A program made the translations under genes and the position numbers. A DNA stretch of 64,000 bases from Crassaminicella thermophila (GTDB taxonomy: Bacteria; Bacillota; Clostridia; Peptostreptococcales; Thermotaleaceae), in the NCBI RefSeq assembly GCF_008152325.1, contig NZ_CP042243.1:625026-689025 (forward strand), written 5' to 3'. The first letter of the stretch is position 1. Every line of letters begins with the position of its first letter. This document shows, in pieces, positions 46,928-50,781 of this stretch. The notes beneath the pieces were generated by a model. It was given only the letters and a program-made list of their open reading frames with translations. It searched no databases and was not told where the DNA came from.

Positions 46928-48586
46928 TTACTTTAATACAGCACCAGTGCTTGCTGAAGTAACTAACTTTGCATATCTTGCAAGATATCCTTTTGTAACC
47001 TTTGGTTTAGGCTTTACAAAGCTTTCTTGACGTTTTTGTATTTCTTCATTGCTTAATTTAACTTCTAATTTTTTATTTGGAATATCGATATGAATTATAT
47101 CTCCATTTTTAATAAGAGCGATTAATCCACCTTCCATAGCTTCAGGAGATACGTGTCCAATTGCAGCACCTCTTGTTGCTCCTGAGAATCTACCATCTGT
47201 AAGAAGTGCAACATCTTTATCTAATCCCATACCAGCGATTGCAGAGGTAGGAGATAACATTTCTCTCATACCAGGTCCACCCTTAGGACCTTCATATCTT
47301 ATGACAATAACATCACCCTTTTGAATCTTTCCATCAAAAATAGCATCCACAGCTTCTTCTTCAGAATTAAATACTTTTGCAGGACCTTCGTGAGTAAGCA
47401 TTTCTTCAGCTACAGCTGATTCCTTTACAACAGCTCCATCTGGGGCTAAATTTCCTCTTAATATTGCAAGTCCTCCTTTGTTTCTATAAGGATTGTCAAT
47501 AGGGTGAATTATATCATAGTTTAATACATTTACCTTTTCAAGGTTTTCTCCGACAGTTTTTCCTGTAACTGTTAAAGCATTTGTATTTATTAATTCTTTC
47601 TTTGTAAGCTCTTTCATAAGAGCTGGGATTCCACCAGCACGATGTAAATCTTCCATATGATGTTTTCCACTAGGACTTAATTTTGTTAAATAAGGTGTTT
47701 TTTGACTGATTTCATCAAATAATTCAAGATCTAATTTAATCCCTGCTTCATGAGCAATTGCTGGTAAGTGGAGTACAGTATTTGAAGAACCAGCCATAGC
47801 CATATCAACGGTTATAGCATTTTTAAAAGCATCTAAAGTAAGAATATCTAATGGTTTTATGTCATTTTTTATACATTCCATAACCTTCATACCTGCATAT
47901 TTTGCTAGTTGAATTCTTTCACCAGAATGAGACATAGCAGTACCATTGTATGGAAGTCCCATACCTAAAACTTCTGTTAAGCAGTTCATACTATTTGCTG
48001 TAAACAATCCTGAGCAAGAACCGCATCCAGGACATGATTTTTTTGCTAATTCTTCTAACTCTTCTTCAGAGATTTTTTGATCCTTAAAAGATCCAACAGC
48101 TTCAATAACACTGCTAAAATCTAAAGCTTTGCCGTTGTGTTCTCCTGCACGCATAGGACCACCGCTAACAACGACAGAAGGGATGTTTAATCTTGCAGCA
48201 GCCATTAACATACCAGGGACAATTTTATCGCAGTTTGGAATTAGTACTAAGCCATCAAAACCATGAGCGATAGCCATTGCTTCAATAGAGTCAGCAATAA
48301 GCTCGCGGCTTGCAAGAGGATATTTCATTCCTTCATGACCCATTGCAATACCGTCACAAATACCGATAGCTGGAAATTCTACAGGAGTTCCTCCTGCCAT
48401 TGCAACACCCATTTTTGCTGCTTGAGCGATTCTATCTAAGTGCATATGTCCTGCAATTATTTCATTTTGAGCATTAACTATACCAATAATAGGCTTATTA
48501 ATTTCCTCTTTTGTATATCCCATACCATAGAATAAAGATCTAGCTGGAGCTCCTTTGGCACCTTTTTTTATAACATCACTTCTCAT
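46928..48586 (-). CDS. ilvD: Dihydroxy-acid dehydratase
   Basis: Fe-S enzyme making the 2-keto acids that become isoleucine and valine, 552 residues. Cluster and active-site motifs: [61 protein letters not shown] and [24 protein letters not shown] at 48586 follows AAGGAGG. It stands alone, without ilvB, ilvC or leuCD nearby, and is preceded by a complete T-box leader, so its expression rises when a branched-chain tRNA is uncharged. Confidence 0.96.
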
Positions 48587-49100: not shown

Positions 49101-49303
49101 GTGGTTGAATATTGTAATGTTAGGTGAGGCTCCTATTGAGATATACGCTGATGCCCAGAAATGTCGAGAGACGCCAATGGGTTAACAAGTATAATCGCTA
49201 AGGTTATATTTAATTCAGCTGACAAAAGGTCAAAGCTCAATAGTGCTAAAGCTCAACATAGAAGAAGATTTATTTTCTCTACTTGTTGAGTAGAGTTTTT
49301 TTG
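49101..49303 (+). ncRNA. M-box (ykoK) magnesium riboswitch upstream of mgtE
   Basis: Contains the M-box core GTTAGGTGAGGCTCCTA (from 49119), GACGCCAATGGGT (49171-49185 region), CAGCTGAC and AGTGCTAAAGCTC (to 49254). The switch is visible: GTTGA (49104-49108) can pair with TCAAC (49253-49257) in the Mg-bound fold, while the latter can instead pair with TGTTGAG (49284-49290), breaking terminator stem CTCTACT/AGTAGAG (49277-49295) that precedes seven Ts. High Mg should therefore stop transcription. Confidence 0.95.
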
Positions 49304-49332
49304 TTTTGGTAAAAATATTTTGAAAGGCTGGT

Positions 49333-49428
49333 GATGGTTATGGATTCTAGTCCTTTACCGAGGCAGAAAAATAAAAAATTAAATATAGAAAAAAGAGCCA
49401 TAACCATCTTTTTGGGTTTGTGGCTCTT
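49333..49428 (+). promoter_or_regulatory. Two mutually exclusive hairpins in the mgtE leader
   Basis: GATGGTTATGG (49333-49343) is perfectly complementary to CCATAACCATC (49398-49408), which is followed by five Ts: a second terminator or a lid on the leader-ORF start. AAGAGCCA (49393-49400) can instead pair with TGGCTCTT (49421-49428), just ahead of the mgtE ribosome site. The arms share 49398-49400, so only one can form fully. Confidence 0.55.
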
Positions 49429-49432
49429 CTAA
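49334..49432 (+). CDS. Putative 32-residue leader peptide ahead of mgtE
   Basis: Open frame ATG 49334 to TAA 49430-49432, lying between the M-box terminator and mgtE. AAAGG stands 6 bases before the ATG, and the stop overlaps the AAGGAGG that serves mgtE, so ribosomes finishing the peptide end on the mgtE site. The peptide has a Pro/Ser start (MDSSPLPRQ), a basic middle (KNKKLNIEKR) and a hydrophobic end (AITIFLGLWLF). Codons in the last third (GCC, ACC, ATC, CTC, TTC) are unusually C-rich for this genome, exactly where the RNA pairs. The short PLPR match to the Salmonella MgtL leader peptide (recalled from memory) may be chance. Confidence 0.5.
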   Translation: MVMDSSPLPRQKNKKLNIEKRAITIFLGLWLF

Positions 49433-49443
49433 GGAGGGGTCAA

Positions 49444-50781
49444 ATGAAAGAACGTGTCATTGAACTTATGAATGAAAAAAAGTATACAAAAGTAAGAGAA
49501 GAAGTAATAGAATTAAATGCAATTGATATAGCAGAACTTTTAGAAGAGCTAGATACCAATAATGCTTTGATACTTTTTAGGATGTTGCCTAAAGATGTAT
49601 CGGCAGAAGTATTTGCGAATTTATCTAATGAGAATCAAAAATACATTATTAATGCAATTACAGATAAAGAAATTCAGTTTATTATGGATGAACTTTTCTT
49701 TGATGATATGATTGACTTTTTAGAAGAAATGCCTGCTAGTGTTGTAAAGAAAATAATAAAAAACACAAAAGAAGATGAAAGAAGACTAATTAATCAGTTT
49801 TTAAACTATCCTGCTAACTCTGCAGGAAGCTTAATGACTATTGAATATGTTGGATTAAAAAAAGAAATGACTGTAAAGCAGGCTATGGAATATATTAAAA
49901 GAATCGGTATTGATAAAGAAACCATTTATACCTGCTATGTTATGGATGTAAATAGAAAATTAGAGGGAATTGTATCGTTAAGGAAATTAGTTGTAAGTGA
50001 TGATGATAAAACTATTGAAGAAATTATGGATACAGGAGTTATATATGTAAATACGCATGATGATCAAGAAGAAATTGCTCATGTATTCAAAAAATATAAC
50101 TTTATTGCCCTGCCAGTTGTTGATAAAGAAGAAAGATTGATTGGAATTATCACAATAGATGATATTGTGGATGTTATAGAGGAAGAAAACACAGAAGATT
50201 TTCATAAGATGGCAGCTATGGAGCCATCTGAAGAGGAATATCTTGAAACTAGTGTAATTACATTGGCAAGAAAAAGAATTGTTTGGCTTATGGCTCTGAT
50301 GATTTCAGCTATTTTTACAGGTAGTATTATTAGTAAGTTTGAAAGTGTACTGCAATCTGTTGTTGCTCTTGCTGCTTTCATGCCTATGCTTATGGGAACT
50401 GGTGGAAATGCAGGAGCACAATCTGCTACATTGATTATCCGGGGAATGGCTTTAGATGAAATTGAATTAAGTGATATTTTTAAAGTGATTTGGAAAGAGT
50501 TAAGAGTTAGTTCTTTAGTAGGGGTTTTATTATCTTTGGTAAATTTTATCAGATTATATTTTTTTCAACATGTAGATATAAGGATTGCTATGGTCGTATG
50601 TAGTACTTTGATTGTTGTAGTTATATTAGCAAAAATTGTAGGAGGGACATTACCTATTATTGCAAAAACTTTAAAACTTGATCCTGCTATTATGGCAAGT
50701 CCAATGATTACAACTATTGTGGATGCTGTATCGCTGTTTGTTTATTTTACAATGGCAAGTAGGATTTTGGGAATTGCGTAA
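49444..50781 (+). CDS. mgtE: Magnesium transporter MgtE
   Basis: Mg2+ channel/transporter, 445 residues, the family norm. Order: N-terminal helical domain (about 1-125), two CBS domains (about 125-250; SAGSLMTIEYVGL and NFIALPVVDKEERLIGIITIDDIVDVIEEENTED), a plug helix and five transmembrane helices (about 280-445) with the pore motif MLMGTGGNAGAQSATLIIRG. ATG at 49444 follows AAGGAGGGG at 6 bases; the open frame from 49420 overlaps the leader ORF. Under the control of the M-box and perhaps of leader translation. Confidence 0.96.
   Translation: MKERVIELMNEKKYTKVREEVIELNAIDIAELLEELDTNNALILFRMLPKDVSAEVFANLSNENQKYIINAITDKEIQFIMDELFFDDMIDFLEEMPASVVKKIIKNTKEDERRLINQFLNYPANSAGSLMTIEYVGLKKEMTVKQAMEYIKRIGIDKETIYTCYVMDVNRKLEGIVSLRKLVVSDDDKTIEEIMDTGVIYVNTHDDQEEIAHVFKKYNFIALPVVDKEERLIGIITIDDIVDVIEEENTEDFHKMAAMEPSEEEYLETSVITLARKRIVWLMALMISAIFTGSIISKFESVLQSVVALAAFMPMLMGTGGNAGAQSATLIIRGMALDEIELSDIFKVIWKELRVSSLVGVLLSLVNFIRLYFFQHVDIRIAMVVCSTLIVVVILAKIVGGTLPIIAKTLKLDPAIMASPMITTIVDAVSLFVYFTMASRILGIA

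Follow-up and report, generated by a model that had tools for sequence, protein, structure and literature searches.

The window analyzed here is a stretch of 64,000 nucleotides of the Crassaminicella thermophila genome (contig NZ_CP042243.1, positions 625,026 to 689,025). On its plus strand, an M-box Mg2+ riboswitch, a short leader open reading frame (ORF), and the gene mgtE follow one another, with these features in window coordinates (the RNA pairings being predicted):

49109 to 49271, plus strand: aptamer of the M-box (ykoK) Mg2+ riboswitch (RF00380, 132.7 bits, E value 1.3e-29).
49277 to 49302, plus strand: terminator hairpin of the M-box expression platform (CTCTAC/GTAGAG plus T-run), recognized by eye, with a similar hairpin in relatives.
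49323 to 49335, plus strand: extended Shine-Dalgarno (SD) sequence of the leader (AAAGG at 49323 to 49327 plus GGTGAT at 49330 to 49335), kept in an alignment of 17 leaders.
49333 to 49343, plus strand: segment 1, the 5' arm of hairpin A, over the leader start.
49340 to 49432, plus strand: leader ORF of 30 codons, MDSSPLPRQKNKKLNIEKRAITIFLGLWLF, starting MDSSPLPR (ATG at 49340, stop codon TAA at 49430 to 49432).
49343 to 49363, plus strand: conserved peptide motif, codons 2 to 8 (DSSPLPR), similar to MgtL of E. coli, with amino acid conservation mainly in codons 2 to 7.
49393 to 49403, plus strand: 5' arm of hairpin B, overlapping segment 2.
49398 to 49408, plus strand: segment 2, the 3' arm of hairpin A.
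49418 to 49428, plus strand: segment 3, the 3' arm of hairpin B.
49421 to 49429, plus strand: anti-SD, the 5' arm of hairpin C, from the minimum free energy (MFE) fold (0 of 100 shuffles as good in the window leader).
49431 to 49437, plus strand: SD sequence of mgtE, AAGGAGG, overlapped by the leader stop codon TAA.
49434 to 49442, plus strand: segment 4, the 3' arm of hairpin C, over the mgtE SD, from the MFE fold, the pairing in 17 leaders, and the SD accessibility model.
49444 to 50781, plus strand: mgtE, encoding a CBS-domain Mg2+ channel/transporter (PF01769, PF03448, and PF00571, i.e., MgtE, MgtE_N, and CBS).

Elsewhere in the window, a T-box leader (RF00230; 48652 to 48918, minus strand) lies ahead of a divergent gene of 552 amino acids (46928 to 48586), whose product resembles dihydroxy-acid dehydratase.

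The AAAGG site of the leader, the stop codon overlapping the AAGGAGG of mgtE, and hairpins A and B had all been described in the original prediction and are present as given there. The frame had been reported to span 32 codons; such a frame exists if counted from 49334, but the conserved start is at 49340, which is favored because relatives keep M-[D/E] at this position. Hairpin A of the window leader comprises 11 bp with a loop of 54 nt and is followed by TTTTT (49409 to 49413). The core of hairpin B (49393 to 49400 with 49421 to 49428) can be extended to 11 bp (49393 to 49403 with 49418 to 49428), and a third pairing, hairpin C, which had not been noted before, consists of 9 bp, 3 of them G-U (49421 to 49429 with 49434 to 49442). 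Since A and B share segment 2 and B and C share segment 3, A plus C on the one hand and B on the other are mutually exclusive, which bears out the claim that A and B cannot coexist. The MFE fold of the window leader contains A and C together. This single-sequence fold is just mildly beyond shuffles (z = -1.52; 13 of 200 shuffles equal), and because single-sequence folding is weak, the case for an RNA switch was built on comparative evidence.

All 16 genomes of the family proved to carry mgtE, and 17 leaders were aligned. As the original prediction required, the frame is conserved among these relatives: the M-[D/E] start is kept, as is the beginning of the peptide (MDSSPLPR, MDTSPLPK, MDASPLPK, and MEGSPLPR), while the remainder drifts. 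The hairpins, for which a covariation test had been proposed, were paired in 97.9% (A), 85.9% (B), and 80.4% (C) of the alignment cells; compensatory changes affected 5 of the 11 pairs of A, 5 of the 11 of B, and 2 of the 9 of C. Pairs changed on both sides numbered 7 for A plus C, a figure reached by 1 of 500 shuffles (shuffled mean, 3.8), and 5 for B, reached by 3 of 500 (shuffled mean, 1.7). The measure "further pair types" was not beyond shuffles for either A plus C (305 of 500) or B (122 of 500). When the pairing partner was slid by 1 to 3 columns, the paired cells fell to 34 to 61% for A plus C and 37 to 54% for B. We regard the comparative evidence for these predicted hairpins as decisive.

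For the wider survey, a leader was defined as an SD-preceded ORF that starts with M-[D/E] and has Pro at codon 4, 5, or 6. The 151 clostridial mgtE loci comprised 22 family loci, a further 29, and 100 class loci, the best-scoring among the matches listed, with matches in 221 of 391 genomes. Leaders were found in 84 of the 151 upstream regions, compared with 58 of 3,020 shuffled upstream regions (1.9%), so that the resemblance of MDSSPLPR to MgtL, first remarked on in the window, extends far beyond this genome. In 77 of these 84 leaders, codon 5 is the one that encodes Pro; the leader definition is circular for codon 2 and partly so for codon 5. SD-preceded upstream ORFs of any kind occur at 90 of the 151 mgtE loci and at 25 of 69 corA loci (see below); with no peptide rule applied, D2 plus P5 was the commonest residue pair of such ORFs before mgtE (65 loci). 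Many of the loci are related, and the leader counts are thus not independent; related leaders were counted singly except in the codon-conservation set (84 thinned to 67) and the cross-leader control (104 thinned to 81). Three R1-model matches (L010, L069, and L147) fall outside the leader definition and are not among the 84. Among the 45 ORFs of at least 150 amino acids in the window, only mgtE is preceded by such a leader.

Searches starting from the leader itself led to the same gene. The leader covariance model matched 40 of 391 class genomes, the window's included; 29 of the 42 matches were inspected, and mgtE adjoined in 29 of 29. A motif scan of GTDB contigs, blind to the neighboring gene, gave 63 matches in 62 stretches, of which 35 lie 89 to 196 nt upstream of mgtE (partly in the same genomes as in the other surveys) and one (L204) precedes a CorA gene. 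Thermotalea metallivorans and Lutispora thermophila are among the species found to bear the leader. The remaining 27 were taken as chance matches, being long frames in genomes with a GC content of 0.45 to 0.78 with no mgtE nearby; CorA was sought at L204 only. A pattern scan of the class yielded 35 matches. Of the 30 loci read, 20 matches stand before mgtE and one (L279) before corA; of the five matches outside the loci read, the coordinates of four place them next to mgtE or identify them as that of the window. The nine read loci that precede neither gene were set aside, seven of them reading MDPGP.., which we take to be the frame of a peptidase gene, and two (L266 and L268) lying in frame inside long ORFs.

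Several mgtE loci depart from the common arrangement. Tandem mgtE genes with a leader-like ORF for each copy occur at L217, L019/L011, L020/L012, L125/L127, and L129/L132, the ORF of L132 reading MDDGSCP and thus lying outside the leader definition; in two tandem cases from Geosporobacter, the M-box is present at the upstream copy only. A distinct leader type, MD[A/G][Y/H/V]PGR (L134, L135, L141, L142, L150, L153, and L174), is missed or barely seen by the R1 model. At L189, L190, and L185, ORFs before mgtE just outside the definition (MKSDSHICSSDSAPGR, MDSGSSSGINPGGR, and MDAGNAQSIKPKG) are perhaps more divergent leaders.

The match at L204 comes from Anaerosolibacter carboniphilus, in which an M-box is followed by the leader and then by a gene for CorA (PF01544, E value 1.9e-55). 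Because of this case and the second one (L279) from the class scan, a survey of corA was undertaken. Matches from 70 of 136 genomes were taken, and L333 was dropped as too short, leaving 69 upstream regions. Leaders were found in 25 of these, compared with 21 of 1,380 shuffled regions (1.5%), with Pro at codon 5 in 24, and D2 plus P5 was again the commonest residue pair when no peptide rule was applied (21 loci). The corA peptides often read MDxDP; examples are MDADPGEK, MDCDPDSN, MDTDPYPN, and MDSGPEHS. At L296, L297, L299, and L301, MDxDP leaders lie 208 to 287 nt upstream of corA; their sequence differs but the pairing logic is the same, as illustrated by AGAGTATCTTTTGACATCA against GTCAAAAGCTACTCT in L296. 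Among 30 regions upstream of clostridial P-type Mg2+ ATPase genes, 6 contained a leader by a looser rule and a wider search range, without shuffle control, and no claim is based on them; possible MDxxP leaders there (L364, L373, L374, and L375) read MDSCPRSQ, MDGSPDGL, and MDTYPSYT.

The RNA design was then followed across leaders. The hairpin, accessibility, and masking-versus-shuffle tests excluded four loci whose leader lies at a distance of over 160 nt, which reduced the 84 mgtE leaders to 80. In an alignment-free test, hairpin A was beyond shuffles (p ≤ 0.05) in 76 of 80 mgtE leaders and 20 of 24 corA leaders, and its pairing was also present in types of unrelated sequence (MDAYPGR, MDSGPYAS, and MDTDPYPN). 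In a harder control, where segment 1 was paired with other leaders, 45 of 81 leaders had their own pairing ranked among the best 5%, and 59 among the best 10%. Hairpin B reached p ≤ 0.05 in 59 of 80 mgtE leaders and in 19 of the 24 corA leaders, 20 of which were testable, and it overlaps segment 2 of hairpin A by at least 3 nt in 79 of 80 mgtE leaders; three near-identical leaders (L095, L097, and L098) have no B. This test scans the entire sequence as far as the SD, and 1 of 200 shuffles was as good for the window leader. It replaced a first version that took segment 3 from the C duplex, by which 46 of 80 leaders were testable and 34 significant and which the window leader failed (76 of 100 shuffles as good). 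Hairpin C alone was beyond shuffles in just 13 of 80 leaders; among mgtE genes lacking a leader, this was so for 2 of 67.

The five Ts behind hairpin A in the window could mark an intrinsic terminator, and on this reading the leader would control transcription. It does not generalize: a U-run follows A in 10 of 80 leaders, the window's included, and is missing from 70 of 80, and the A loop measures 54 nt in the window. Hairpin A as an intrinsic terminator is thus in our view very improbable.

To model a ribosome on the leader, the RNA was truncated so as to begin 30 nt inside the leader, which masks the first ten codons. In the window leader, the modeled unpaired probability of the SD was 0.54 for the whole leader, 0.82 with this early mask, and 0.43 when masked up to segment 2; the means over 80 mgtE leaders were 0.42, 0.57, and 0.39, respectively. 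Early masking shifted SD accessibility by more than 0.1 upward in 42 of 80 and downward in 1 of 80 mgtE leaders, compared with 113 of 800 up and 163 of 800 down for leaders with shuffled middles; for the other 38 of 80, the modeled gain did not exceed 0.1. At corA, 12 of 24 went up and 2 of 24 down (shuffles, 35 of 240 up and 59 of 240 down). The suggestion that a ribosome near the leader start breaks hairpin A is backed in silico. At corA, the mask up to segment 2 failed to conceal the SD in the way predicted (means, 0.39 for the whole leader, 0.585 with the early mask, and 0.47 when masked up to segment 2), and the OFF step is therefore less clear there.

Codon conservation was analyzed in 67 mgtE leaders thinned to less than 85% identity. 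Amino acid conservation is high in codons 2 to 7 and fades after codon 8, with a MDSGPLP-like start consensus before mgtE, while third codon positions vary (Pro5 is CCT in 37, CCC in 14, and CCG in 9). The number of column shuffles, out of 300, that reached the observed conservation was 5 for codon 3, 0 for each of codons 4, 5, and 6, 1 for codon 7, 8 for codon 8, 17 for codon 9, 103 for codon 10, 101 for codon 11, and 4 for codon 12. If the peptide were a conserved small protein that acts on MgtE or CorA in trans, with the RNA pairing secondary, its N-terminal conservation would be explained, and the C-terminal halves of many leaders do look hydrophobic by eye; however, only about seven residues are conserved, the length varies, 14 frames overlap mgtE, and the RNA design is retained where the sequence differs, so that we give this reading hardly any credence, less than any other considered here.

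The position of the leader end varies, although half of the leaders match the window in this respect. Of 82 leaders with a stop codon in the examined DNA, 42 end 0 to 20 nt before the mgtE start, as in the window. Another 26 stop farther upstream, at most 100 nt before mgtE, and 14 stop inside mgtE, at most 82 nt in; a further two continue beyond the examined DNA. These figures bear on plain translational coupling, in which ribosomes finishing the leader would re-initiate at the transporter SD and the hairpins would only block direct initiation. The window's UAA overlapping the SD and the 42 leaders of like ending suit it, and coupling via the leader stop had been part of the original prediction; the 26 early and 14 overlapping ends weaken it, the conservation sits in the first codons, and hairpin B would be pointless. 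Coupling of this kind is accordingly improbable, and since the stop position varies, what the leaders share is the early codons, not termination.

The relation to the M-box was determined with Rfam, as a regular expression undercounts this riboswitch: all 56 regex-negative leader loci were put through Rfam, and 8 were positive. Together with the 28 found by the regular expression, an M-box is present at 36 of 84 leader-bearing mgtE loci, whereas 48 lack one in the examined upstream DNA (about 520 nt in short loci, 178 nt in L165). At one of the 8 added by Rfam (L064), the aptamer lies about 400 nt before the leader. The possibility that the leader is a part of the M-box (RF00380) expression platform, occurring only with the aptamer, is contradicted by these 48 loci. 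They also qualify the earlier proposal of a second layer of control after Mg2+ sensing: a ribosome-controlled layer stands in silico, but it is not merely "after" the M-box. Even within the family, 6 of 17 loci are without M-box by Rfam (L003, L007, L008, L009, L011, and L012); by eye, a terminator-like hairpin is still kept in four of these six leaders (L003, L007, L008, and L009). Compared with its close relative L004, L003 (about 1230 to 1400) has lost the aptamer that would lie behind a promoter-like TATAAT and ahead of the terminator hairpin, with terminator and leader kept.

All in all, the earlier observation is real and larger than stated. The architecture is well supported, and the arrangement is probably a ribosome-operated translational attenuator for Mg2+ uptake with an MgtL-like early pause or drop-off. 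The conserved peptide, M-D-x-[S/G/D]-P(-L-P), is encoded ahead of mgtE and, in many Clostridia, of corA, and its start codon lies in hairpin A. According to this model, the 3' arm of A could instead join the anti-SD as hairpin B; with B absent, the anti-SD could pair with the transporter SD as hairpin C. Initiation without completion would then be the ON state, and completion or no initiation the OFF state. With ample Mg2+, ribosomes would pass the acidic and proline-containing start and sweep the 3' part, A and C would form behind them, and the SD would be hidden. In low Mg2+, as on MgtL, the ribosome would pause or dissociate before it had passed more than five to seven codons; with the start region still occupied or re-initiated, A could not form, B would form, and the SD would be free for synthesis of the transporter. 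By the usual footprint, a ribosome held at about codons 1 to 5 covers segment 1, whereas one with codon 7 in the P site leaves most of it free; the footprint thus requires pausing at about codon 5 or earlier, or re-initiation. Asp-Pro runs stall ribosomes of B. subtilis lacking EF-P (PMC11381351), and therefore this type of motif can be hard to translate in Gram-positive bacteria, too. In the window, the leader would be a second gate after the M-box terminator; at loci without M-box, it would be the sole Mg2+ gate seen there.

That Mg2+ is the signal we infer from the linkage to two families of Mg2+ transporters, from the M-box neighbors, and by analogy to MgtL. The same attenuator might instead respond to charging of tRNA-Pro, to polyamines, or to generally slow translation, with Mg2+ uptake being only the response. 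The core of many mgtE leaders contains two prolines, and Salmonella mgtL also responds to proline limitation. However, many corA leaders have one Pro and two Asp (MDADPGEK and MDCDPDSN), i.e., the number of prolines is not kept, and the linked genes encode two families of Mg2+ transporter, with an M-box at several of the loci. We therefore consider such a signal unlikely, though less so than the other alternatives, and Mg2+ remains the favored one.

MgtL of mgtA in Salmonella and E. coli is, like the leaders described here, a short ORF with acidic and Pro early codons upstream of an Mg2+ transporter, and both are associated with mutually exclusive RNA structures, set here, in silico, by leader translation. 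According to PMC11282234, low Mg2+ leads to ribosome drop-off at EPDP and thereby to transcription of mgtA, and in the presence of EttA, a toeprint is seen that places Pro3 in the P site. MgtL differs in acting by Rho-dependent transcription termination on a P-type ATPase gene, whereas the anatomy here points to hiding of the mgtE or corA SD. CorL of E. coli and Salmonella is an upstream ORF before corA that depends on Mg2+ and whose translation represses corA (PMC11552253). It shares its place before corA with the corA leaders but differs in being Rho-dependent, and it is reported to have a single Pro in its conserved N terminus.

The RNA logic resembles that of Erm attenuators, which follow a 1:2, 2:3, and 3:4 pairing scheme. 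Here, 1:2 plus 3:4 would alternate with 2:3 pairing, with segment 1 over the leader start and C as the weak member. For an SD hidden and then freed by an early ribosome, as in Erm-type systems, the outcome is mixed: modeled accessibility agrees with it in the window and in 42 of 80 leaders (113 of 800 shuffles), and hairpin C alone is beyond shuffles in 13 of 80. The inducer of Erm attenuators is a macrolide on the ribosome, whereas no drug link was seen here and the neighbors are Mg2+ transporters. For ermB and ermC, PMC8274638 describes stalling on the leader peptide that frees a hidden ribosome binding site. In M. tuberculosis, the conserved uORF2 (Rv1805A) before pe20 has a conserved N-terminal Pro; it is flanked by an M-box and by Mg2+-linked genes, and SD/anti-SD pairing is described there as well (PMC12810186). 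It differs in that the M-box controls the uORF and the peptide, with Pro at position 7, is called mycobacteria-specific; unlike what is proposed for the clostridial leader, the excerpted passages describe no peptide-driven control of a transporter (PMC12810186).

No published description of the clostridial leader system was found in open-licence PMC papers, and leader-peptide control that combines an MgtL-like peptide with Erm-like RNA logic is a new variant. On balance, though with somewhat less assurance than for the attenuator itself, we favor the view that these leaders form a widespread clostridial family of nascent-peptide Mg2+ sensors, MD(S/A)(G/S/D)P(LP), acting by translational attenuation on two unrelated transporter families (MgtE and CorA), able to replace the M-box, with the Mg2+ dependence of the ribosome as the sensor, as in MgtL, through either convergence or ancient descent. 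The dozens of natural variants of the acidic/Pro motif offer material for testing nascent-peptide destabilization of the ribosome in low Mg2+, and the model predicts Mg2+ control of many clostridial mgtE and corA genes without M-box. If it holds true, ribosome-based Mg2+ sensing would be a general bacterial strategy rather than an enterobacterial peculiarity, and sensing by the ribosome would be seen to replace or back up a riboswitch.
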